Assembly: GCF_019884725.1 (NCBI RefSeq)
Contig: NZ_CP082322.1
Span: forward strand, 2,542,001 to 2,606,000
DNA: 64,000 nt
Origin: Leucobacter tenebrionis
GTDB lineage: Bacteria; Actinomycetota; Actinomycetes; Actinomycetales; Microbacteriaceae
Direction of reading: 5' to 3'
Shown: one piece after another, positions 21,670-33,098 of the stretch
How positions within the stretch are numbered: the stretch's first letter is position 1
Layout of the letters: every line of letters starts with the position of its first letter
Made by a program: the position numbers and the translations under genes
The notes under the pieces: model-generated
Seen by the model: the letters and a program-made list of their open reading frames with translations, nothing else
Told to the model about the DNA's origin: nothing
Databases searched by the model: none

Positions 21670-22821
21670 CTACGCGCCGGGGCGGCTCGGCTCGAGGCTC
21701 GCGAGCGTGCCGAGGAGCGAGAGGGGCACGAGTGCGGGATCCGCGGCCCCGTCGCGCACGATCGCGGCGATGCGCGATCCGAGTTCGGACGTCGTCGCGC
21801 CCATGCCCGGCCCCGAGAGCTCCGGCAGCGAGGCCAGCACCTCGACTGTCGCGGCCTCGACCGCTCGCGCCGCGTCGGCCTCGCCGAGGTGGCCGAGCAT
21901 GAGCGCGAGAGACAGGATCGCGCCCGACGGGTTCGCCCAGCCCGTGCCGGCGATGTCGGGCGCGGAGCCGTGGATGGCCTCGAACATGCTGGGCGCGGAG
22001 CCGTCGAGGTTGAGGTTCGCGCTCGTCGCGACGCCGAGCCCTCCCTGGATGACGGCCCCGAGGTCGGTGATGATGTCGCCGAAGAGGTTGTCGGTGACGA
22101 CGACGTCGAAGCGTTCGGGCGCGAGCGGGAGGTGGAAGCACATAGCGTCCACGTGCACGTAGTCGGTCTCGACCTCGGGGTAGCGGGTGGCGACGTCGGC
22201 GACGACCTCCTGCCAGAGCTGCCCGGCCGCCACGAGGATGTTGGTCTTGTGGCAGAGCGTGAGGCGCTTGCGGCGAGCGGCCGCGAGGCGGAAGGCGAAG
22301 TCGACGACGCGCTCGATGCCGGGGCGGGTGTTCAGCGACTCCTGCATCGCGACCGCGTTCGGGGTGCCGGCGTGCACGGTCGAGCCGCGGCCGACGTAGG
22401 CGCCCTCGGTGTTCTCGCGCACGATCACGAGCTCGCAGCGCTCGGGCGTGAGACCGGCGATGGGGGTGGGCACCCCGGGGTAGAGGCGCACGGGGCGCAC
22501 GTTGGCGGCCTGCTGGAAGCGCTGGCGCATCTCGAGGATGAAGCCGCGCTCGAGGATGCCGGGGGTGACGCGCGGGTCGCCCATGGAGCCGAAGAGGATC
22601 GCGTCGGCTCCGCGCAGCTCATCCTCGAGCGCGGCGAAGAGCTCGCCGGTCTCGAGGTAGTGGTTCGCGCCGGCCGAATACTCGCGGCGCTCGGTGCGGA
22701 AGCCGTAGCGGGCCTCGGCCGCGTCGAGCACCTCGAGCGCGCAGCCGACGACCTCGGGACCGATGCCGTCGCCGGGTAGCACCGCGATCCGGTGCGCGGT
22801 GGTCTGGGGGGAGCGCGTCAT
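21670..22821 (-). CDS. Isocitrate/isopropylmalate dehydrogenase family protein (beta-decarboxylating)
   Basis: The 383-residue protein shows the family's PGDGIGPEV start, an RPVRLYPG loop, catalytic Tyr in RENTEGAYVG, Lys in CHKTNIL, and metal-binding Asp residues (DAMCFHL, DNLFGDIITDL). HGSAPDIAGTGWANP is the NAD site. LeuB normally has a leucine-rich substrate loop, whereas this protein has FQQAANVRPVRL, closer to LeuB-like or tartrate dehydrogenase paralogues. Being inside a catabolic island with its own operator argues against a leucine biosynthetic role. ATG 22821 has GGATCC upstream and is the last start before divergent promoter DNA. It converges with rluB. Confidence 0.82.
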   Translation of the reverse strand: MTRSPQTTAHRIAVLPGDGIGPEVVGCALEVLDAAEARYGFRTERREYSAGANHYLETGELFAALEDELRGADAILFGSMGDPRVTPGILERGFILEMRQRFQQAANVRPVRLYPGVPTPIAGLTPERCELVIVRENTEGAYVGRGSTVHAGTPNAVAMQESLNTRPGIERVVDFAFRLAAARRKRLTLCHKTNILVAAGQLWQEVVADVATRYPEVETDYVHVDAMCFHLPLAPERFDVVVTDNLFGDIITDLGAVIQGGLGVATSANLNLDGSAPSMFEAIHGSAPDIAGTGWANPSGAILSLALMLGHLGEADAARAVEAATVEVLASLPELSGPGMGATTSELGSRIAAIVRDGAADPALVPLSLLGTLASLEPSRPGA

Positions 22822-22902
22822 CGAGGATCCTTCCGTGGAGTGCGAGGGCGACGCGGCCGCGCGGCGGGCGTTGTTGCGTCGCAGATCTTGAACTATATTA
22901 AC

Positions 22903-22913
22903 TGGTAAGACCA
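22903..22913. promoter_or_regulatory. Putative GntR/FCD operator between the dehydrogenase and ALDH genes
   Basis: TGGTAAGACCA at 22903-22913 is a perfect TGGT-N3-ACCA palindrome, the core that FadR, PdhR and LldR-type GntR regulators recognise. The extended site TGGTAAGACCACT recurs with one change at 32220-32232 in front of the island's GntR gene. On the minus strand the sequence TTACCA, then TATAGT 16 bases on (near 22888), could be a promoter overlapped by the site. Confidence 0.7.
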
Positions 22914-23015
22914 CTCCTGGCGAGTGATCCGACCCGCTCTCCGTGCGCACGGCGGCCGCGACGCCGCGGCCGAGTCGCGCGGGATATCAGCAACCCGGCA
23001 GCAAGGATCCAGCCC

Positions 23016-24515
23016 ATGCACGCAACGCCCGCACGGCTCGCCCCCGCGGGAGCCCTCCCCATCGGCGCCGACTGGCGCGAGCTCCCCGACTCCGCCGACG
23101 TCGTTTTCCCCTACGACGGCAGCCTCGTGGGCCGGGCCCCCGTGAGCCGCGCCTCCGATTCCCACGACGCGCTGGACGCGGCCGAGGCCGCCCGGCCCGA
23201 GGTGGCGGCGCTCACCACGGCGCAGCGCAAGTCGATCCTCCTCGCGGTGCACGACCGGCTGCGGGCCGACGCGCAGCGCTTCGAGGACCTGCTCGTGCTC
23301 GAGACCGGCAAGCCCCGCGTCGACTGCCGCACCGAGGTGAGCCGCACGATCGTCACCCTGCAGGCCACGGCCGAGGAGGTGTCGCACGTGCACGGCGAGA
23401 CGGTTCCCCTCGACCTGCAGGAGCTCGGCCGCGGCATGATCGGCTACTACACCCGCAAGCCCGCGGGCGTCGTCGTCGGGATCGCCGGCTTCAACTACCC
23501 GGTGCTGCTCGCGACCCACAAGCTCGCCCCGGCGATCGCTGCCGGCTGCCCCGTCATCGTCAAGCCAGCCCCCAACACGCCGCTCGCCACGATCGAGCTC
23601 GTCGCGATCGTGCGCGAGGTGCTCGCCGAGCACGGCGTCACGGGCGCCGCGGTGCAGCTCGTGAACGGCGACCCCGAGGTGGGCGAGACGCTTGTGCGGG
23701 ATCCCCGCGCCCAGGTCGTCTCCTTCACGGGATCAGCGAAGATCGGACACCTCATCGCCGGTCAGGCGGCCCCCCGCAAGACGCTGCTCGAGCTCGGATC
23801 CAACACCGGCTTCATCGTCGCGGCCGACGCCGACGTCGAGGCCGCGGTTGACGCCGTGCTGCGCGGCGGCTTCTACGCGAACGGTCAGGCCTGCATCTCG
23901 GTGCAACGCGTGGTGCTCGAACGCCCCATCGCCGAGGCCTTCACCGCGCGGCTCGTCGCCCGAATGGCCGAGCTCGTCGTGGGCGACCCGCGCGACATCG
24001 AGACGAACGTGGCACCCGTCATCAACGCGGCGTCGGCGGAGCGGATCCGCGGTACCGTCGAGCGCGCGCTCGACGCGGGTGCGGAACTGCTCAGCCCGGC
24101 CGAACTCCCCGCTCCCGGTGCAGAGGCCTCGGGCGCATCCCTCGTGCCGCCGATCGTGCTCGGCGACGTGCCGCACGACGCGGAGGTCTGGCGCGAGGAG
24201 ATCTTCGGCCCGGTCGTCTGCCTCACCGTCGTCGACTCGGTCGACGCGGCGGTCGACCTGGTCAACGAGTCCCGCTACGGGCTGCAGGCCGCGATCTACA
24301 CGGCCTCGCTCGAGAGCGCCTTCGCCGCGGTCGAGCGCCTCGAGGTCGGCGGCGTCGTCGTGAACGAGATCCCGGGCTTCCGCTCCGACATCATGCCCTA
24401 CGGCGGCGTCAAGGACTCCGGCATCGGCCGCGAGGGCCCCCGTTACGCCATCGAGGAGTTCACCGTCACCCGCATGGCCATGATCCGCCCCGCACCCCGA
24501 AAGGTCACCGCATGA
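23016..24515 (+). CDS. NAD(P)-dependent aldehyde dehydrogenase
   Basis: The 499-residue protein is a full-length ALDH: Asn160 (GFNYP), cofactor Lys183 (IVKPAPNTPL), general base Glu259 (LELGSNTG) and nucleophile Cys293 (GQACISVQR). The loop SFTGSAKIGHLIA is typical of semialdehyde and benzaldehyde dehydrogenase groups. ATG 23016 has AAGGA upstream. The gene overlaps the following SDR by four bases (ATGA). With the SDR it should oxidise an alcohol or aldehyde to a carboxylate; the substrate is not known. Confidence 0.9.
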   Translation: MHATPARLAPAGALPIGADWRELPDSADVVFPYDGSLVGRAPVSRASDSHDALDAAEAARPEVAALTTAQRKSILLAVHDRLRADAQRFEDLLVLETGKPRVDCRTEVSRTIVTLQATAEEVSHVHGETVPLDLQELGRGMIGYYTRKPAGVVVGIAGFNYPVLLATHKLAPAIAAGCPVIVKPAPNTPLATIELVAIVREVLAEHGVTGAAVQLVNGDPEVGETLVRDPRAQVVSFTGSAKIGHLIAGQAAPRKTLLELGSNTGFIVAADADVEAAVDAVLRGGFYANGQACISVQRVVLERPIAEAFTARLVARMAELVVGDPRDIETNVAPVINAASAERIRGTVERALDAGAELLSPAELPAPGAEASGASLVPPIVLGDVPHDAEVWREEIFGPVVCLTVVDSVDAAVDLVNESRYGLQAAIYTASLESAFAAVERLEVGGVVVNEIPGFRSDIMPYGGVKDSGIGREGPRYAIEEFTVTRMAMIRPAPRKVTA

Positions 24516-25312
24516 ACGCCGTCCAGGCATCCCCCGACTACGCCCAGCTCTTCCGGCTCGACGGCCGCACCGCCGTCGTGGTGGGCGCCGGCGGTATCGG
24601 GCGCGAGGCCGCCCTGGCGCTCGCCGCCCACGGTGCGCGCCTGGTCATCGCCGACCTCTCACTCGACGCGGCGCAGGCCACCGTCGCCGCGATCGCGGAG
24701 CGCGGCGGCGAGGCGGAGGCGTACCGCCTCGACGTGCTGGACGATGCCGAGGTGGAGGCCGCGGCCGCGCGCTTCGGCGATGCTTCGGTGCTCGTGTTCA
24801 CGGCCGCGATGAACGTGCGCAAGCGTATGGAGGACTACACGATGGAGGAGTACGACCGCGTCGTGAACCTCAATCTGCGTTCGTCGTTCCAGCTGATCCG
24901 GCACTTCGGCAAGGCTTTCGCGGCGAACGGCGGCGGCTCCATCGTGGGCTTCGCGTCGATCCGCGCCCACGTCGTGGAGCCCGGACAGGGCGTCTACGCC
25001 GCCACCAAGGCCGGGCTGGTGCAGCTCGCGAAGACCGCCGCGGCCGAGTTCGGCGCGCGGGGGGTGCGGGTGAACGTCGTCGCCCCGGGGATCGTGGAGA
25101 CGCCGCTGACAGCGCAGATCAAGCAGGACGAGGCCTGGGACCGCGCCTACGCCACGAAGAGCGCACTCGGCCGCTGGTCGCGCCCCGACGAGCTGGCCGG
25201 AGCGGTCGTCTACCTCGCCTCGGACGCCTCCAGCTTCGTCACGGGCTCGACGCTGATGGTCGACGGCGGCTGGACCGCCATCGACGGTCGCTTCACCCCG
25301 CCGACTGCCTAG
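24512..25312 (+). CDS. Short-chain dehydrogenase/reductase
   Basis: The 266-residue SDR has a cofactor loop GAGGIG (residues 25-30, in place of the usual TGxxxGIG), Asp following beta-2 (VIADLS, NAD preference), a conserved Asn (AAMNVRKR) and the YAATK catalytic pair. The family C-terminus GSTLMVDGGWTA is present. It is translationally coupled to the ALDH and ends at a strong hairpin shared with the convergent amidase. It could supply the aldehyde for the ALDH by oxidising an alcohol. Confidence 0.9.
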   Translation: MNAVQASPDYAQLFRLDGRTAVVVGAGGIGREAALALAAHGARLVIADLSLDAAQATVAAIAERGGEAEAYRLDVLDDAEVEAAAARFGDASVLVFTAAMNVRKRMEDYTMEEYDRVVNLNLRSSFQLIRHFGKAFAANGGGSIVGFASIRAHVVEPGQGVYAATKAGLVQLAKTAAAEFGARGVRVNVVAPGIVETPLTAQIKQDEAWDRAYATKSALGRWSRPDELAGAVVYLASDASSFVTGSTLMVDGGWTAIDGRFTPPTA

Positions 25313-25332
25313 CGGCGCGGACCAGATAAAAG

Positions 25333-25386
25333 CGGAGTCCCGAAGTGCTGCTACTCGGGGAAGAGAAGCAGCACTTCGAGACTCCG
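25333..25386. terminator. Strong bidirectional terminator hairpin
   Basis: The left arm at 25333-25352 and right arm at 25367-25386 pair over 19 positions with a single C/A mismatch (CGGAGTC, then CGAAGTGCTGCT) around a 14-base loop. It separates the convergent SDR and amidase genes. Its first 12 bases match the hairpin at 4525. Confidence 0.85.
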
Positions 25387-25417
25387 TGTTGCTGCGAGCG
25401 GGTCGGTCGCGGCCGTC

Positions 25418-26818
25418 TTAGCGGATCTTCGACCAGTCGACCTCGGCGTCGGCGCCGCGCACCGTCTCGAACCAGTGCGCGACGCGCAGCAGTCGGTCGT
25501 CGGAGCCGATGGGACCGGCGATCTGCAGGCCGACGGTGCGGCCGTCGGCCTGGATGCCCGCGCCGACCGACACGGCCGGCTGCCCCGACATGTTGTAGGG
25601 CACAGTGAAGGAGATGTGCCCCATCGTCTGCAGCGGGTCGGTGATGGGCATCGGGTCCTCGGCGGCGAAGGCCGCGACGGGGGAGACCGGGGAGAGCACG
25701 AGGTCGTAGGGCGCTGTGGCGGCGCGGGTGAGGCGCGCCATCTCGTCTGCGCAGCCCCGGTTGCGCACCGTCTGCGCGGCGGAGAAGTCGGCGCCGGCCG
25801 AGCACCACTCCACGATGAAGGGCAGCACCAGCGCGCGGTCGGCCTTGCTCAGCGCCTCGAGGTCGGCGTAGGAGCGGCTGCGCCAGAAATCGACGAGCCC
25901 GTCGAGCACCTCGGCCGGCACGAACGGGGCGAGCGGCTCGACGATCGCGCCCGCGGCGGCGAAGCGCTCGGCCGCGGCCTCGATGAACGCGCGCGTCTCC
26001 GGCTCGACGGCCAGGCCCGAGCCCGCGTCGAGCTGCAGTGCGACCTGGAGGCCCGCCGGCTCGAGCGGCTCGAGCGACCACTCCATCGGCGGGTAGGGGC
26101 GGGTGAGGTAATCGCGCTCGTCGGGCCGAGCGACGATCGACATGAGGCGGATCGCGTCGGCGACGGTGCGGGTCATCGGGCCGGCCGCGCGCCCCGTGTA
26201 TGGCACGTCGAGCGGGATCAGGCCCTCGCTCGGCTTGAGCGCCGCGACGCCCTGCCAGGTGCCGGGCAGGCGGATCGAGCCGCCGATGTCGGTGCCGATG
26301 TGGAAGGGGCCGTAGCCGGCCGCCGCGGCGGTGCCCGCCCCCGCGCTCGAGCCGCCGGAGGTGAGCGACGGGTCGATGCCGTTGCGGGTGATCCCGTGCA
26401 GGCTCGAGACACCGGAGGAGAGCATGCCCCAGTCGGGCATCGTCGTCGAGCCGACGATGACGACGCCCGCCTCGAGCAGGCGGTCGGTGGTGGGCGCGTT
26501 GGCAGCGGCGACCGGCGGATTCGGCAGCGCCGTGCCCGAGGGCTTCGGCCGCCCCGCGCGCGCGATGTTCTCCTTGACCGTCGCGGGCACGCCGTCGAAC
26601 GGGCTGAGCGGCTCGCCCGCGGCCCAGCGCGCGGTCGACGCGGCGGCGTCGGCGCGCACCTCCTCGGGATCGTGCAGGTAGAGCGCGTTCAGCTCGGGCT
26701 CCCGCTCCGCGATGCGGGCGAGCACGCTCTCGGCGACCTCGCTCGGGGTGAGGCTGCCGTCGGCGTAGCGCTCAGCGAGGGTGGCGGCGTCGAGGGCGGA
26801 GAGGTCATTATGAGGCAT
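25418..26818 (-). CDS. Amidase signature family hydrolase
   Basis: The 466-residue protein has the Lys-cisSer-Ser triad of the family at Lys82 (PATVKENIA), Ser157 (TSGGSSAG) and Ser181 (GTDIGGSIRLPG), with the spacing seen in GatA (75 and 24 residues). A C-terminal block PAVSVGAGIQADG ends the domain. It is not GatA itself, as there are no gatC/gatB neighbours. It overlaps the upstream ABC ATPase gene by 11 bases, so it is the last gene of the importer operon and probably hydrolyses an amide brought in by that transporter. Confidence 0.9.
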   Translation of the reverse strand: MPHNDLSALDAATLAERYADGSLTPSEVAESVLARIAEREPELNALYLHDPEEVRADAAASTARWAAGEPLSPFDGVPATVKENIARAGRPKPSGTALPNPPVAAANAPTTDRLLEAGVVIVGSTTMPDWGMLSSGVSSLHGITRNGIDPSLTSGGSSAGAGTAAAAGYGPFHIGTDIGGSIRLPGTWQGVAALKPSEGLIPLDVPYTGRAAGPMTRTVADAIRLMSIVARPDERDYLTRPYPPMEWSLEPLEPAGLQVALQLDAGSGLAVEPETRAFIEAAAERFAAAGAIVEPLAPFVPAEVLDGLVDFWRSRSYADLEALSKADRALVLPFIVEWCSAGADFSAAQTVRNRGCADEMARLTRAATAPYDLVLSPVSPVAAFAAEDPMPITDPLQTMGHISFTVPYNMSGQPAVSVGAGIQADGRTVGLQIAGPIGSDDRLLRVAHWFETVRGADAEVDWSKIR

Positions 26819-28580
26819 GTGCGAGCTCCTGACGCAGGGTGAGGGACGATTCGATGAGCCGTCGGGTGTACGGGTGCTGCGGGTCGCGGTAGACGGTCTC
26901 CGTGTCGCCCGCCTCGACGATCTCGCCCGACTGCATCACGATCACGGAGTCGCAGAGGTGGCGCACGACGTTCAGGTCGTGGGAGACGAAGACGAGGGTG
27001 AGCCCGTACTCGTCGACGAGGTCGGCGAGCAGGTTGAGCACCTGCGCGCGCACCGACACGTCGAGGGCGCTGACGGGCTCGTCGGCCACGACCACCTCGG
27101 GGCGGCAGATCAGGGCCCGGGCGATCGAGATGCGCTGGCGCTGACCGCCCGAGAACTGGTGCGGGTACCGCTCCGCCGAAGAAGCTGGGAGGCCGACTGC
27201 CTCGAGCATCTCGGCGACCATGCGTGAGCGCTCGGCGGCGGTCTCGCGGCGGCCGGGTACGAGCAGCGGCTCGGCGATGATCTGCTCGACGGTCATGCGG
27301 GGATCGAGGGACCCCATCGGATCCTGGAACACGATCTGGAGCTGCTGCCGCAACTGGCGCAGCTGAGGCTCCCGCGCGCCCGCGACCTCGTTGCCGGCCA
27401 CGACGGCGCTGCCGGAAGTCGGCTGGTCGAGGCCCGCGAGGATGCGCAGCAGCGTCGACTTGCCCGAACCGGACTCGCCGACGACGCCGAGGCGGCCGCC
27501 GCGCGGCACCTCGAAGGAGATACCCTTGAGCGCCTGCACCTGTGGCGCCGGCTCGAACAGGCGCGTGCGGCCGCGCGTGTAGGTGCGCACGAGGTCGGTG
27601 ACGCGCATGACGGGTTCGGCGGCGGGGCTCGCGGGTGCCGGGCTGGTCGGCGGCACCGCGGATCCGGCCCCTTCTGACGCCTCCGCCGATCCCGCGCCCT
27701 CGCCGACCGCGGGCTCCTCCCCATCGACCGTCGGCGGCACGTAGTCCTGCGCGCTCGCGACAGTGAAGAGCCGCCCGTCGGCGTCCGTCGCCTCGAGGTC
27801 GGAGGCCGCGAGCAGGCCGCGCGTGTAGGGGTGCTGCGGATGCGTAAAGATCTCCTCGGTCGGACCCTCCTCGACCACCGTGCCCTGGTTCATCACGAGC
27901 ACGCGCGTGCACATGTTCGCGACGACCGCGAGGTCGTGGGTGATGAAGAGCAGGCCCGTGCCGCGCTCGCGCACGAGCTCGAGGATGAGGTCGAGCACCT
28001 GTCGCTGCACGGTAACGTCGAGCGCCGTGGTCGGCTCGTCGCAGAGCAGCAGCGCCGGATCGTTGGCGAGCGCCATGGCGAGCATGACGCGCTGCCGCTG
28101 GCCGCCCGACAGCTGGTGCGGGTAGGCCCGAGCCGCCTGCGCGGGATCGGGCAGCTTGACCGCATCGAGCATCTCGACGGCGCGGCGCCGCGCCTCCGTC
28201 TTCGAAGGCGCGAGCCGGTGCTGCAGCATGATCTCCGCGACCTGGTCACCTGCGCGCATGAGCGGGTTGAGCGCCGTCAGCGGCTCCTGGAACACCATCG
28301 CCATGTCGCGGCCGCGGATCCGCATGAGCTCCGACTCGGGGGCTTCGAGCAGGTTGCCGGCGTGGCCGTCGAGGCGCACCGTGCCGTCAGCGGTGACTCC
28401 GTTCGGCAGTAGGCCGAGCAGGGCGGTCGTGGTCATCGACTTGCCGGATCCCGACTCGCCGATGAGGCCGATCCGCTCGCCGTGCGCCATGTGCAGCGAG
28501 AAGTCGTGCACGAGCGTGCGGTGGGGCGTGCGGACGTTCAGGCTCTCGACCGAGAGCAGCGTCTTCGTTGCGGTGGTCAT
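26808..28580 (-). CDS. Dipeptide/oligopeptide ABC transporter, fused double ATPase (DppD-DppF type)
   Basis: The 590-residue protein has two complete nucleotide-binding domains. Domain 1 has Walker A GESGSGKS at residues 41-48 and signature LSGGQRQRV; domain 2 has a second GESGSGKSTLL at about residue 380 and FSGGQRQRI. Each is followed by the oligopeptide-binding C-terminal segment (HPQHPYTRGLL and DPQHPYTRRLI). A Pro/Ala/Glu-rich linker joins them. The fusion replaces separate DppD and DppF. ATG 28580 overlaps the upstream permease end by one base. Confidence 0.93.
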   Translation of the reverse strand: MTTATKTLLSVESLNVRTPHRTLVHDFSLHMAHGERIGLIGESGSGKSMTTTALLGLLPNGVTADGTVRLDGHAGNLLEAPESELMRIRGRDMAMVFQEPLTALNPLMRAGDQVAEIMLQHRLAPSKTEARRRAVEMLDAVKLPDPAQAARAYPHQLSGGQRQRVMLAMALANDPALLLCDEPTTALDVTVQRQVLDLILELVRERGTGLLFITHDLAVVANMCTRVLVMNQGTVVEEGPTEEIFTHPQHPYTRGLLAASDLEATDADGRLFTVASAQDYVPPTVDGEEPAVGEGAGSAEASEGAGSAVPPTSPAPASPAAEPVMRVTDLVRTYTRGRTRLFEPAPQVQALKGISFEVPRGGRLGVVGESGSGKSTLLRILAGLDQPTSGSAVVAGNEVAGAREPQLRQLRQQLQIVFQDPMGSLDPRMTVEQIIAEPLLVPGRRETAAERSRMVAEMLEAVGLPASSAERYPHQFSGGQRQRISIARALICRPEVVVADEPVSALDVSVRAQVLNLLADLVDEYGLTLVFVSHDLNVVRHLCDSVIVMQSGEIVEAGDTETVYRDPQHPYTRRLIESSLTLRQELAHAS

Positions 28581-29491
28581 CAGCTGCGGCTCCCGTTCAG
28601 CTTCGGGTCGAATCGATCGCGCAGGCCGTCGCCGAGCAGGTTGAATCCCATCACGGCGATCGCGATGGCGACGCCGGGCACGATCGCGAGCAGGGGGTGG
28701 GTGCCGAGGAACTGCTGCGACTCCTGCAGCATCCGGCCCCAGGAGGGGGTGGGCGGTGGCGTGCCGAGGCCCAGGAAGCTCAGGCCGGCCTCCGCGAGCA
28801 CGGCGAGCGCGAAGGAGACCGAGCACTGCACGACGACGATGCCGATGATGTTCGGCAGCACGTGCCGCAGTGCGATCCGGAACCGCGACTGGCTGGCGGC
28901 CCGCGCCGCGAGCACGTACTCGGTGTTCATCACCTGGAGGGTGCCGGACCGCGCGACCCGCGCGAATGCCGGGATCGTCGAGATGCCGATCGCGACCATC
29001 GCCGTGAGCGTCGAGGCGCCGAACACGGCAGCGAACATGATCGCGAGCAGCAGGGCCGGGAAGGCGAGCGCGATGTCGGAGGCGCGCATCACGACCTCCT
29101 CGATCCAGCCGCCGCGGATGCCGGCCAGGATGCCGAGCGGCGTGCCGACGAGCAGCGCGATCCCGACCGAGATGACGCCCACGAAGAGCGTGATGCGGGC
29201 GCCGACGAGCATGCCGGAGAAGAGGTCGCGGCCGTACTTGTCGGTGCCGAGGAAGTGCTCCGCGCTCGGACCCTGGAGACGGTCGGGAGCGTTCACCTGC
29301 ACGGGGTCGTAGGGGGTCCAGACGAACGACACGAGAGCGGCGACGACCACGAGGCCGACGAGGATGAGGCCGGCGATGAGCGTGGGGGAGAGGCGCCCGC
29401 GGGCGCGTCGGGAGCGGGGCGGGGTCGGGGCCGCGAGCGCGGTCGTGCGCGGGGCCTGCGACGGGGGCGTCGGAATGTGCTTCGTATCCAT
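28580..29491 (-). CDS. Peptide-type ABC transporter permease, DppC-like
   Basis: The 303-residue protein has a proline-rich cytoplasmic N-terminus, the DppC motif HFLGTDKYGRDLFSGM (about residues 87-102) and an EAA-like loop (AARAASQSRFRIALRHVLPN). About six membrane helices are visible. It pairs with the permease encoded 2 bases upstream. Confidence 0.92.
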   Translation of the reverse strand: MDTKHIPTPPSQAPRTTALAAPTPPRSRRARGRLSPTLIAGLILVGLVVVAALVSFVWTPYDPVQVNAPDRLQGPSAEHFLGTDKYGRDLFSGMLVGARITLFVGVISVGIALLVGTPLGILAGIRGGWIEEVVMRASDIALAFPALLLAIMFAAVFGASTLTAMVAIGISTIPAFARVARSGTLQVMNTEYVLAARAASQSRFRIALRHVLPNIIGIVVVQCSVSFALAVLAEAGLSFLGLGTPPPTPSWGRMLQESQQFLGTHPLLAIVPGVAIAIAVMGFNLLGDGLRDRFDPKLNGSRS

Positions 29492-29493
29492 GG

Positions 29494-30441
29494 TCAGGCG
29501 CTCTTTCGCATCCGCGGGTCGACGATCGTGTAGACGATGTCGATGACGAGGTTCAGGATGAGGGTGATGGCGACGAGCACCATCACGACGGACTGGACCG
29601 TCAGGAGATCCCGATTGCCGACGGCGTCGAGCAGCATCGAGCCGAGGCCGGGGATCACGAAGACGCGCTCGATCACGACCGCGCCGATGATGAGCGCGGC
29701 GATCTGCACGCCCGTCACCGTGATGACGGGGATCGCGGCGTTGCGCATGCCGTGCTTGAGCAGCGCCTTCGTGGGGCTCAGGCCCTTCGAGCGGGCGGTG
29801 CGGAGGTAGTCCTCGCTCATGATCTCGAGCACGGCCGAGCGCACATAGCGGGTGAGGATCGCGCCCTGCACCGAGGCGAGGGCGAGCACCGGCAGGATCA
29901 GGCGTCGCACGAAGTCGCCGGGATCCTCGGCCGGAGGCGTCCAGCCGCCGGAGGGCAGCCAGCCGAGCCCGACCGCGAAGACGAGCACGAGCAGGATGCC
30001 GGCGAGGAAGCCGGGGACGGCGACGCCGAGCTGGGAGGCCGCGCCGATGAGGATGCCGGAGGCGTTGCGGTGCCGCACCGCGGCGATGGTGCCGAGGGGG
30101 ATGGCGGCGAGCAGCGCCACGGCCATCGCGGTGAGCACCAGGATGAGGCTCACCTGCAGGCGGTCGATCACGAGCGGGCTGATGTCCTGGCGGGTGACGT
30201 ACGAGATGCCGAAGTCGCCGGTGAGGAGGCCCCCGACCCAGTCGAAGTACTGCACGATGAGGGGGCGGTCGGTGCCGAACTCGCGCCGGGTCTGCTCGAG
30301 CAGCTCGGGGCTCGCGTTCACGCCCAGGGCCACCTGCGCCGGGTCGCCGGGGACGAGGCGCATGAACAGGAAGACGACGACGGTCGCGACGAGGAACGTC
30401 ACCGCGAACCGCGCGAGGTTGATGAGTATCCGGATGGCCAT
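29494..30441 (-). CDS. Peptide-type ABC transporter permease, DppB-like
   Basis: The 315-residue protein has the DppB start (helix, then FLFMRLVPGDPAQ), a GLLTGDFGISYVTRQ loop, and an EAA loop (YLRTARSKGLSPTKALLKHG). ATG 30441 is preceded by AGAGGA; the open frame continues 26 codons upstream without membrane character. A 90-base GC-rich gap separates it from the binding-protein gene, where stem-loops could lower downstream expression relative to the receptor, as is common in ABC operons. Confidence 0.92.
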   Translation of the reverse strand: MAIRILINLARFAVTFLVATVVVFLFMRLVPGDPAQVALGVNASPELLEQTRREFGTDRPLIVQYFDWVGGLLTGDFGISYVTRQDISPLVIDRLQVSLILVLTAMAVALLAAIPLGTIAAVRHRNASGILIGAASQLGVAVPGFLAGILLVLVFAVGLGWLPSGGWTPPAEDPGDFVRRLILPVLALASVQGAILTRYVRSAVLEIMSEDYLRTARSKGLSPTKALLKHGMRNAAIPVITVTGVQIAALIIGAVVIERVFVIPGLGSMLLDAVGNRDLLTVQSVVMVLVAITLILNLVIDIVYTIVDPRMRKSA

Positions 30442-30531
30442 GCTGGTCCTCTGAATGAGCGGTGCCGCGGCCGGGCGCGGCGGGATCGGGGACGACGGGG
30501 CGGCCGCTCGCGCGACCACCCCGTCAGCGGG

Positions 30532-32058
30532 TCACTTCCAGGAGAGGCCGGTGAGGTCCAGCGACTCCACGATGGAGTTCTCCGGCATACCCTCGAGGTC
30601 CGCCTGGGTGATGACGATGTTCGGGAAGAGGAACAGCACGCCCGACGCAGCGTCGGCGACGATCTGCTTCTGCACGTCCTGCATGCCCGAGATGTAGCCC
30701 TGCTCGTCGGCCTCGTCGGCCGCCGCGGCGATGGGCGCGATCTTCAAGTTGTCGTAGCCGATGTAGTAGTCGGGGTTGTTGAAGACCGTCAGCAGGTCGC
30801 GCGCCTCGACCGCGAGCACGGTCGTCATCTGGTAGTTGTGGTTCGTGAACACCTCGTCGAGCCAGACGGCCGGGAACTCGGACGACTGGATCGTGACGTC
30901 GATGCCGACCTCCTTGAGCTGCGACACGACGATCTCGGAGACGGCTTGCGCGTAGGGGCGGGTCGGCACCGTGTAGGTGATCGAGAGGTTCTCGGCGCCG
31001 GCCTCCTTGAGCAGCTCCTTCGCCTTCTCGGGATCGTAGGGGTACTCGTCGTTGAGGTCGACGTAGTAGGGGTCGGTCGGGGTCGCGTAGGTCGCGACGA
31101 GCGAGCCGTAGCCGTTCCAGGCGGTGTCGATGATCGCCTGGCGGTCGAGTGCGTAGAGCACGGCCTGGCGCACGCGCACATCGTCGAACGGTGCGACGCG
31201 GTTGTTGAACGAGAGCGAGACCTCGCCGCTCGAGGTGCCCGCGGTCACGGTGTACTGGTCGTCGCCCTCGAAGGTCTCGACGAGCTCGGGCGCCTGCAGG
31301 TTGACGATCGCGTCGACGTCGCCGGTGCGCAGCGCGTTCGTGGTCGCGGTGGCGTCGGCGAAGTACTGCAGGGTGACCTGCTCGACCTTCGGGGTCTCGC
31401 CCCAATAGTCGTCGCGGGTCTGCAGCACGATGTTCTCGTTCTGCTTCCATGACTCGACGGTGAAGGGGCCGGTGCCGACGGGCGCGTTCGCAAGGTCGGC
31501 CACGCCGTCGGGAGAGAAGATCGCGCCGACCGGCGTCGCCATGTCGAAGAGCCAGGCGTTCGAGGGGCGGCTCAGGTGCACTGCGACCTCGGTCGGGCTC
31601 GTCACCTCGACGCTCTCGACGACGTCCATCTTCGCCTTGAGGGTGGTGGTCCAGTCGGTCTTGACCCGCTCGAGGCTGAACTTCACGTCCTCTGCGTCGA
31701 ACTCGTCGCCGTTCGAGAAGGTGACGCCCTCTTGCAGCGTGAAGGTGTAGGTCTTGCGGTCCTCGCTGACCTCCCAGTCTTCGGCGAGGAGCGGCACGAC
31801 CTCACCGCTCTGGTCGACGCGCACGAGGCCCTCGTAGACGTTCGTCATGAGCGCCTGGGGGATCGCCGCGCCGGCCGTCTTGGTGAAATCGAGGTTCACG
31901 GGCGCGCCCGTGAGCGCGACGGTGACGTCGGTCTTGTCGCTGCCGGATCCGGATCCGGAGCCGGCGGAGCCTGCCGAGCCGGCCGAGCACGCCGTGAGCG
32001 CGAGGGCGCCGGCCGCGGCGAGTGCCGCGGCGAAGATCAGTGGGTTCTTGCGTCGCAT
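30532..32058 (-). CDS. Peptide-type ABC transporter substrate-binding lipoprotein
   Basis: The 508-residue family 5 extracellular binding protein has a lipoprotein signal (residues 1-24, lipobox LTAC with Cys24), a Gly/Ser linker and the conserved receptor core (YEGLVRVDQSGEVVPLLAEDWEVSEDRKTYTF). Family members bind peptides, nickel, glutathione or varied amides. It is the first gene of the minus-strand operon. ATG 32058 starts exactly at the signal peptide. Its leader of about 160 bases contains the GntR-type operator at 32220. Confidence 0.93.
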   Translation of the reverse strand: MRRKNPLIFAAALAAAGALALTACSAGSAGSAGSGSGSGSDKTDVTVALTGAPVNLDFTKTAGAAIPQALMTNVYEGLVRVDQSGEVVPLLAEDWEVSEDRKTYTFTLQEGVTFSNGDEFDAEDVKFSLERVKTDWTTTLKAKMDVVESVEVTSPTEVAVHLSRPSNAWLFDMATPVGAIFSPDGVADLANAPVGTGPFTVESWKQNENIVLQTRDDYWGETPKVEQVTLQYFADATATTNALRTGDVDAIVNLQAPELVETFEGDDQYTVTAGTSSGEVSLSFNNRVAPFDDVRVRQAVLYALDRQAIIDTAWNGYGSLVATYATPTDPYYVDLNDEYPYDPEKAKELLKEAGAENLSITYTVPTRPYAQAVSEIVVSQLKEVGIDVTIQSSEFPAVWLDEVFTNHNYQMTTVLAVEARDLLTVFNNPDYYIGYDNLKIAPIAAAADEADEQGYISGMQDVQKQIVADAASGVLFLFPNIVITQADLEGMPENSIVESLDLTGLSWK

Positions 32059-32190
32059 CGTTGCTTCCTCTTGCGGGTGGTGGCCGACGGGCATCGGCCG
32101 CTCTGGGCGCCGGCGGCGCGGGTGGACCGCCGGGTGGTTCGAACGGTGCTGGTGGCACCCCTCCGCGACCATCTTCCTCGATGAGCGCGC

Positions 32191-32208
32191 TCGAACCGCG
32201 AGGTTCGA
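32191..32208. promoter_or_regulatory. Palindrome TCGAACC-N4-GGTTCGA in the binding-protein/GntR promoter region
   Basis: A perfect 7-bp inverted repeat with a 4-base spacer at 32191-32208, lying 11 bases from the GntR-type operator. It could be a second regulator site or a small hairpin in the leader of the importer operon. No counterpart was seen at the other island promoter. Confidence 0.4.
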
Positions 32209-32219
32209 ACCAGGATACA

Positions 32220-32230
32220 TGGTAAGGCCA
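32220..32230. promoter_or_regulatory. Second copy of the GntR/FCD operator
   Basis: TGGTAAGGCCA (32220-32230, continuing CT) differs by one base from the site at 22903. It lies between the divergent importer operon and the GntR gene. On the minus strand TTACCA then TATCCT gives a promoter-like pair overlapping it; on the plus strand TAAGAT at about 32244-32249 could serve gntR. Position predicts autoregulation plus control of the importer. Confidence 0.7.
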
Positions 32231-32342
32231 CTTGTTGCACCGCTAAGATGGGGGCACCTCGGCCCGTCGTCGAGCGCTCCGCACCGCCGCGGCGACGCTC
32301 CTCGGGTCGGATCACAACCGAGTCGCTAGGAGGCGCCCGCCG

Positions 32343-33098
32343 TTGTCCACCCCCCACAGCTTCGCTCCCGCCGTCCCGGTGCACACCTACCAGCGCATCG
32401 TGGAGCAGATCGAGCACGCCATCGTCACGGGCGAGATTCCCGTCGGTTCCCAGCTCGCGAGCGAGCGGGAACTGATGGTGCAGTTCGACGTGAGTCGGCC
32501 GACGGTGCGCGAGGCGCTGCGGGTGCTGCAGAGCATGGGCCTCATCGAATCGCGCCCCGGCACCCGGGGCGGCCCGCAGGTGCTCGCGCCCTCGCCCGAG
32601 ACCCTGCGACGGTCGTTGCGTGCGATGCTCGGCACGGCCGCGCTCGACCTCGCGGAACTCGTGCAGTACCGCGTCGTGCTCGAGGGGACGGCGAGCGCCC
32701 TCGCCGCGCTGCAGCACTCGGAAGCCCAGCGCGATGAGATGCGCGTCGCGGTTGAGCGGATGCAGCGGGCCGCGGAGGCGAACTCCGACGACTTCGCCGA
32801 TCTCGACCTCGCCTTCCACAAGCTCATCTGGTCGGCGAGCGGCAACCGCATCTTCGCGCTCAGCGGCGAGGCCGTGTCGGGGGTGCTGCGCTCCGTGATG
32901 CACCGCGATGCCGAGGGAGCGCACCACGACAACCGCGTGAAGCTCGAGTCGGCCGCCATCGACCGCGGGCTGTTCGACGCCATCGAGCGACGCGACGCGA
33001 CCGAGGCGGGCAGCATCGCCCGCAAGGCCGTCGCGAACCGCTTCGGCCCGCTGCTCGAGCCGGAGCAGCAGGCCGCGCTCGCGCTGCTGGTGGGATAG
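32343..33098 (+). CDS. GntR-family regulator with FCD domain, predicted regulator of the island
   Basis: The 251-residue protein starts with a short tail, then a winged helix (residues about 17-85, with DVSRPTVREALRVLQSMGLIESRPGTRGG as recognition helix and wing) and an FCD domain (LDLAFHKLIWSASGN, later His residues). A TTG start at 32343 is supported by AGGAGG at 32328-32333, nine bases upstream. It is divergent from the peptide-type importer and converges with an MFS gene. The TGGT-N3-ACCA sites in front of it and at 22903 are the class its family binds. Confidence 0.88.
   Translation: MSTPHSFAPAVPVHTYQRIVEQIEHAIVTGEIPVGSQLASERELMVQFDVSRPTVREALRVLQSMGLIESRPGTRGGPQVLAPSPETLRRSLRAMLGTAALDLAELVQYRVVLEGTASALAALQHSEAQRDEMRVAVERMQRAAEANSDDFADLDLAFHKLIWSASGNRIFALSGEAVSGVLRSVMHRDAEGAHHDNRVKLESAAIDRGLFDAIERRDATEAGSIARKAVANRFGPLLEPEQQAALALLVG

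Follow-up and report, generated by a model that had tools for sequence, protein, structure and literature searches.

Bacterial degradation of pantothenate (vitamin B5) was reportedly described in the 1960s (by Nurmikko, in 1966). We take the pathway of Pseudomonas fluorescens to run through pantothenase (EC 3.5.1.22), pantoate 4-dehydrogenase (EC 1.1.1.106), 4-dehydropantoate dehydrogenase (EC 1.2.1.33) and dimethylmalate dehydrogenase (EC 1.1.1.84). Among the open PubMed Central (PMC) titles and abstracts listed, with subscription papers outside the scope of the search, we found no gene assignment for pantothenate degradation. According to a paper of 2023, the protein behind pantothenase is unknown (PMC10393543), and the excerpted part of a paper on a Spiroplasma regulator of pantothenate and coenzyme A (CoA) metabolism speaks once of 'catabolism of pantothenate' and names no degradation enzymes (PMC5138195). 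Here we describe an island of nine genes with two divergent promoter regions in Leucobacter tenebrionis, located within a stretch of 64,000 nucleotides (the window; positions 2,542,001 to 2,606,000 of contig NZ_CP082322.1) of a genome that is a single 3.38-Mb contig. Judging by its gene content and promoter sites, the island probably constitutes one regulon for the use of pantothenate as a nutrient.

Enzymes of the LeuB/isocitrate dehydrogenase family act on a malate core. Since the member of this family in the island, which resembles 3-isopropylmalate dehydrogenase (IPMDH), would be preceded by an aldehyde dehydrogenase (ALDH) and an alcohol dehydrogenase of the short-chain dehydrogenase/reductase (SDR) class, the malate core points back to a 2,4-dihydroxy acid, and the amidase points to an amide of that acid; pantothenate fits all four enzyme steps as predicted from their families. 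In the proposed pathway, a Dpp/Opp-type ABC importer would take up pantothenate as a small-peptide-like amide, and the amidase would split it into pantoate and beta-alanine. The SDR would oxidize the 4-hydroxyl of pantoate, the ALDH would oxidize the resulting aldehyde to 3,3-dimethylmalate, and the LeuB-like enzyme, as a 3,3-dimethylmalate dehydrogenase, would oxidize and decarboxylate this to 2-oxoisovalerate, which would enter valine/leucine or isobutyryl-CoA metabolism. Such a product fits the statement that pantothenate catabolism in pseudomonads yields isobutyryl-CoA (PMC6027186).

At family level, the gene classes of the pathway are all present together (amide hydrolase, alcohol dehydrogenase, aldehyde dehydrogenase and malate-type decarboxylating dehydrogenase). 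Catalytic motifs are kept in the amidase, SDR, ALDH and IPMDH-like protein, and the importer set is complete, with a family 5 substrate-binding protein (SBP), two permeases and two ATPase domains. The amidase scored 600.9 bits on NF005450 (cut-off 458), and the regulator has an N-terminal GntR winged helix-turn-helix domain (PF00392) and a C-terminal FCD domain (PF07729), both above cut-off. A preliminary description of this DNA, made from the letters alone, had named the same genes, and Pfam and NCBIfam bear the list out, with the two ATPase domains fused in one gene. It had left the substrate open, and the evidence assembled here points to pantothenate.

On the model NF002898, the IPMDH-like protein scored 440.8 bits and a paralogue at 3271262-3272314 scored 547.5, both passing the cut-off of 393; the genome's best match to the LeuB model is therefore the paralogue, and a role of the island gene in leucine biosynthesis was rejected because of this better match elsewhere. 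Tartrate dehydrogenase (TTC), and with it tartrate use, was rejected on a TIGR02089 score of 341.3 bits, below the cut-off of 470.4. The genome also has a tartrate-dehydrogenase-like paralogue, as well as panB and panC at 1.525 Mb. Because a better LeuB, panB and panC lie elsewhere, the island seems unneeded for leucine or vitamin synthesis, and it looks catabolic.

The preliminary description had proposed that two near-identical 13-mers, at 22903 and 32220, tie the island together under one GntR-type regulator. Both 13-mers lie at these positions, one in each divergent promoter region, but the TGGT-N3-ACCA core read in them is complete only in site 1; site 2 has TGGT-AAG-GCCA, with one mismatch. 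We take TGGT-N3-ACCA to be the operator consensus of FadR/PdhR-type regulators and the island sites to be of that type. The exact 13-mer pattern has two matches in the genome, both in the island. The window alone gives a weak signal, as 12 of 100 shuffles likewise reached two or more matches when up to two mismatches were allowed. At the same tolerance the whole genome has 23 matching places versus 140 for a reversed control, which has one exact match in this genome and 10 across 25 genomes of the genus, so that a chance exact match is possible but rare. Two one-mismatch sites in the genome were not separated from the true sites by a long-open-frame criterion.

Beyond the window, across the genome and the genus, the signal is strong. 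The SDR was found at E 1e-60 or better in 18 of 25 Leucobacter genomes, and in promoters of the orthologous islands the exact site is present in all 18; the seven genomes without the SDR have no exact site. All 34 exact sites in the genus lie at island promoters, 18 of them upstream of ALDH and 16 between SBP and GntR, with both sites in 16 of the 18 genomes and the ALDH-side site alone in G021 and G022. GntR orthologues (65–89% identity) occur in 16 of the 24 other genus genomes, and 17 of the 18 genomes with the SDR have a GntR orthologue. In 16 of the 18 the ALDH-side site is flanked by IPMDH and ALDH genes that diverge from it; in G017 and G020 the IPMDH gene is separated by nearly 2 kb or more. 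Each half of the island keeps its site where the two sites are 18–34 kb apart (G012, G013, G018 and G023), and also in G001, where the halves are on different contigs.

The ALDH-side site begins three bases after TATATT (TATGTT in one genome), and a TTG-type hexamer lies 17 bases from TATATT in 15 of 17 aligned genomes. From the alignment, a protein bound directly past TATATT would cover the transcription start. A generic promoter and terminator scan gave nothing above shuffles, including no ALDH promoter. In the proposed mechanism, the FadR-type protein would bind TGGTAAGRCCACT at both divergent promoters and repress them until released by an effector, probably a pathway intermediate. Left of operator 2, bases 32204-32219 (TTCGAACCAGGATACA) are almost unchanged in 16 aligned genomes and are possibly part of the SBP promoter.

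Sibling loci in other genera were collected by searching with nine aligned SDR proteins, and the best 80 of 469 were kept. They range from Leucobacter to Streptomyces, Kribbella, Nonomuraea, Amycolatopsis, Arthrobacter, Cryobacterium, Chloroflexi, Deinococcales and Acidobacteria. Across these 80 and six other loci, TGGT-N3-ACCA occurs 74 times, with 56 of the 74 upstream of module genes, where 1.6 would be expected from the remaining sequence; the common form of the related site outside the genus is ACTGGTCNGACCAGT. Such a site is present in 45 of the 80 loci: of the 40 that have an FCD gene, 36 carry it, and of the 40 that lack one, nine do. The form CTGGTCNGACCAGT is present in all 12 sibling genomes searched whole, where several sites lie away from the reference genes and the reversed control matches too; these sites may belong to other regulons. 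Because the sites are confined to island promoters, are kept in separated halves and have a related counterpart before sibling modules, the prediction that both halves form one FadR-type regulon is strongly supported, in line with the earlier proposal of a single GntR-type regulon.

One genus-mate departs from this arrangement. Permease B is 83–94% identical to that of the island in 15 genus-mate loci and 61% identical in L043 (G021:C13:454000-473000), where the transport half has diverged (amidase 60%, SBP 59%) and a second FCD-type gene (36% identity) lies close by. In L043 a different operator-like site, TGGTTCGACCA, precedes SBP, and TGGTAAGACCACT is retained at the ALDH half; this may be a case of regulator and operator having been swapped in nature.

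Gene classes in the 80 sibling loci were counted by tblastn (E 1e-10, any coverage, unless stated), since maps of open reading frames had missed genes; three clusters of neighbouring proteins that look misframed were set aside. The importer ATPase (61) and ALDH (59) were most frequent, ahead of permeases B and C (51 each), SBP (49), the FCD regulator (40) and amidase (39); S58-family hydrolases were counted in 25 loci, IPMDH and M20 in 20 each, class III aminotransferases in eight and panC in one. At identities of at least 40% and coverage above 0.4, the counts were 52 for ATPase, 57 for ALDH, 44 for SBP, 38 for amidase, 24 for S58, 19 for IPMDH, 17 for M20 and six for aminotransferase. At coverage above 0.5, amidase is present in 38, M20 in 19 and S58 in 21 of the 80; amidase and M20 co-occur in no locus, and M20 and S58 occur together in 13 (naive P = 3.9e-7 and 8e-6, respectively, ignoring relatedness). 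We read the amidase and M20 as alternative candidate pantothenases for one step, with S58 predicted to act earlier, on pantetheine.

The suggested order of import, hydrolysis, oxidation and decarboxylation draws support from these sibling modules and from an operon in Ensifer. A plasmid of Ensifer canadensis carries a run of genes for GntR, ALDH, SDR, SBP, two permeases, two ATPases, amidase and a LeuB-like dehydrogenase, and the same run occurs on two more Ensifer/Sinorhizobium plasmids. Its amidase, permease C and ATPases share 49–54% identity with those of the island (SBP 39%, permease B 40%), and its ALDH, SDR and LeuB-like dehydrogenase only 30–34%; the operon is predicted to comprise the same reaction classes, filled by other subfamilies. 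In a 396-genome sample of the phylum, with three candidates scored per genome, the ALDH reached E 1e-100 in only five genomes: that of L. tenebrionis itself, two with module-like surroundings (G025 and G208) and two in which no SDR or amidase was seen (G074 and G357; 43%).

Several further clusters touch on the composition of the module. Relatives of the amidase in Pseudosulfitobacter, Aureimonas and Burkholderia were rejected as modules, with none of the dehydrogenases in view, and clusters in Rhizobium and Azospirillum that pair a tartrate dehydrogenase with an ALDH, without an amidase or adjoining SDR, were excluded from the counts. A Thermus thermophilus plasmid (L088) has genes for a class III aminotransferase, an SDR (58% identical to that of the island), an M20 protein and a peptide-type importer in a row, near an alpha-ketoacid dehydrogenase, a possible thermophile version. 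In Caballeronia sp. NK8 (L092:10007-13394), a tartrate-dehydrogenase-like gene, an ALDH and a DUF2520/Rossmann protein stand in a row, and modules in Arthrobacter (L078), Rhodococcus (L111) and Prauserella (L114) likewise have DUF2520 proteins close to them; DUF2520 proteins may therefore act on pantoate or ketopantoate.

The pantothenate idea was set down before links of the modules to panC, S58 and aminotransferases were found. In the window itself we found no genomic link to pantothenate or pantetheine metabolism. Plasmid pDCT5 of Arthrobacter dokdonellae carries IPMDH, ALDH, SDR, FadR and panC genes in a row, its panC scoring 275 against a cut-off of 213. When two module S58 hydrolases were compared with the PDB, ThnT was the nearest entry for both (295 versus 134 bits for the next, and 342 versus 152). 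One source calls ThnT a pantetheine hydrolase (PMC13062082), and another states that it degrades the pantetheinyl group only when this is attached to the carbapenem core (PMC6097109). The class III aminotransferases, which are also found in the Thermus and G025 modules, are fitting for beta-alanine as a product.

S58 of the module type was found in 32 of the 396 phylum genomes at E 1e-60, and 20 S58-anchored loci drawn from these 32 places served as a rough control. None of these loci shows an M20, an SDR or a main-type ALDH, and L220 and L234 are the only two with SBP or amidase. S58 stands beside panC in three of the 20, all from one actinobacterial family; in these three (L229, L230 and L232) about 90, 60 and 940 bases separate the ends of the S58 and panC matches, and no SDR module is visible around them. 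In a tree, 19 of 23 module S58 proteins fall in a clade apart from ThnT, together with three rows of the phylum sample (one being the module-like L220). The S58 and panC evidence for a predicted link to pantothenate or pantetheine metabolism is therefore at family level only.

The same S58 genes raise the alternative that the island degrades a different pantoyl amide, either panthenol or the pantetheine released by CoA turnover, with the same downstream steps. S58, ThnT-like where tested, occurs in 25 of the 80 sibling loci and accompanies M20 in the 13 noted above, but it was not found in the window, in 16 genus-mate loci or in the L. tenebrionis genome at E 1e-60, and 35 of the 38 amidase loci are without it; we consider this alternative unlikely for the island. 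An amide of a different 2,4-dihydroxy or malate-type acid, with the panC and S58 neighbours coincidental, appears to us improbable to a similar degree. The enzyme families are broad, their specificity is predicted only and the panC links are few; however, the S58 and panC links arise in separate lineages, and pantothenate is the only common natural amide known to us that would suit all four enzymes. Two independent functions under one regulator (peptide uptake with the amidase, and a separate branch of alcohol/acid oxidation) might be read from the halves that lie apart or on different contigs and from the G021 transport half, in whose place a diverged set stands next to another gene of the FCD type, but are highly improbable given the same site at both halves and the co-occurrence of the halves in many genera and in one Ensifer operon.

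Several observations count against pantothenate as the substrate of one conserved regulon. IPMDH is linked in only 20 of the 80 sibling loci, 18 of the 80 show no amide hydrolase at coverage above 0.5 (some of them on short contigs), and members of the amidase family also stand apart from the dehydrogenases, a purine cluster being one example. G022 keeps its ALDH-side site, yet a search of its fragmented assembly (190 contigs) gave no GntR orthologue. Of the 80 loci, one (L165) has panC close to its SDR, and the panC module of pDCT5 has no amidase and no importer in view. The absence of S58 from the island and, at E 1e-60, from its own genome, cited above against pantetheine, also belongs here; 18 of the 20 inspected S58 places in the phylum lie outside modules (L220 and L234 being module-like), and seven S58 proteins of one genus are closer to ThnT (64–68%) than the module S58 are (46–59%).

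The features of the island are listed in Table 1. The SDR and ALDH genes overlap by four bases, and for the DppB-type permease an internal ATG was taken as the start (30519 in the list of open reading frames). By open-frame reading alone, the flanks hold a pseudouridine synthase on the left and MFS, Lrp and prephenate dehydrogenase genes on the right. Elsewhere in the genus, the IPMDH-like gene of G023 (L214) appears split across two frames and the GntR orthologue at G019:C1:3034891-3035664 has one in-frame TAG, each of which may reflect decay or sequencing error.

Table 1. Genes and promoter elements of the Leucobacter tenebrionis island, in window positions; functions are predicted from sequence
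Feature	Position	Strand	Remarks
LeuB/isocitrate-dehydrogenase family beta-decarboxylating dehydrogenase (IPMDH-like)	21670..22821	-	Pfam Iso_dh; ATG start chosen
Inferred ALDH promoter	22871..22899	+	TTGTTG 22871-22876, 17-base spacer, TATATT 22894-22899; read from sequence and alignment
Operator 1, TGGTAAGACCACT	22903..22915	+	Starts 3 bases past TATATT; between divergent IPMDH-like (-) and ALDH (+) genes
Aldehyde dehydrogenase; predicted 4-dehydropantoate dehydrogenase	23016..24515	+	Pfam Aldedh; ELGSN and GQAC motifs
SDR oxidoreductase; predicted pantoate 4-dehydrogenase	24512..25312	+	Pfam adh_short_C2; S, Y and K residues
Amidase-signature hydrolase; predicted pantothenase	25418..26818	-	Pfam Amidase; Lys, GGSS and GGSIR motifs
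Fused Dpp/Opp-type ATPase, two ABC domains	26808..28580	-	Two ABC_tran stretches
DppC-type permease	28580..29491	-	Pfam BPD_transp_1
DppB-type permease	29494..30441	-	Pfam BPD_transp_1 and BPD_transp_1_N on 29494-30519
Family 5 substrate-binding protein (SBP)	30532..32058	-	Pfam SBP_bac_5; lipoprotein-like N-terminus
Operator 2, TGGTAAGGCCACT	32220..32232	+	Between divergent SBP (-) and GntR/FCD (+) genes
GntR/FCD regulator; predicted to repress both divergent promoters and its own gene	32343..33098	+	TTG start

A wider reading, which we rate about as likely as not, is that the island is the Leucobacter version of a module of broad distribution that lets bacteria feed on vitamin B5 and on pantetheine derived from CoA; in Actinomycetota it would be under FadR-type control, and parts of it would occur in Alphaproteobacteria, Thermus, Chloroflexi and Acidobacteria. 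On this reading, the orphan enzymes of pantothenate degradation would gain their first genes, the amidase and M20 would be two unrelated pantothenases that replace each other at a single step, and a pantetheine hydrolase resembling ThnT would act before them. If the pantothenate assignment is right, environmental bacteria would have in it a means of removing vitamin B5 and recycling CoA, and annotations such as 'leuB', 'amidase' and 'peptide transporter' would be corrected in many genomes. With four candidate genes, an importer and a regulon of two sites, the assignment of genes to pantothenate degradation can be tested directly.

Set beside known systems, the island combines familiar families with differences in detail. 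The IPMDH-like enzyme shares its family and catalytic residues with actinobacterial-type LeuB, but its pocket-region motifs differ (ERGFILEMR against ERGLLLKLR, and DAMCFH against DAATIF). The regulator is like FadR/PdhR-type GntR-FCD proteins in both of its domains, but it scores far below the cut-offs of the NCBIfam FadR, PdhR, NanR and LldR models, and the Leucobacter operator sites, unlike FadR/PdhR-type operators, are asymmetric. ThnT, a pantetheine hydrolase of thienamycin biosynthesis, is the nearest solved relative of the two sibling-module S58 proteins tested and has no counterpart in the Leucobacter island. Pantothenate degradation in Pseudomonas fluorescens is known as biochemistry, in an organism other than Leucobacter, and the importer and regulator differ or have no known counterpart, but the order of its reaction types matches one island gene each.

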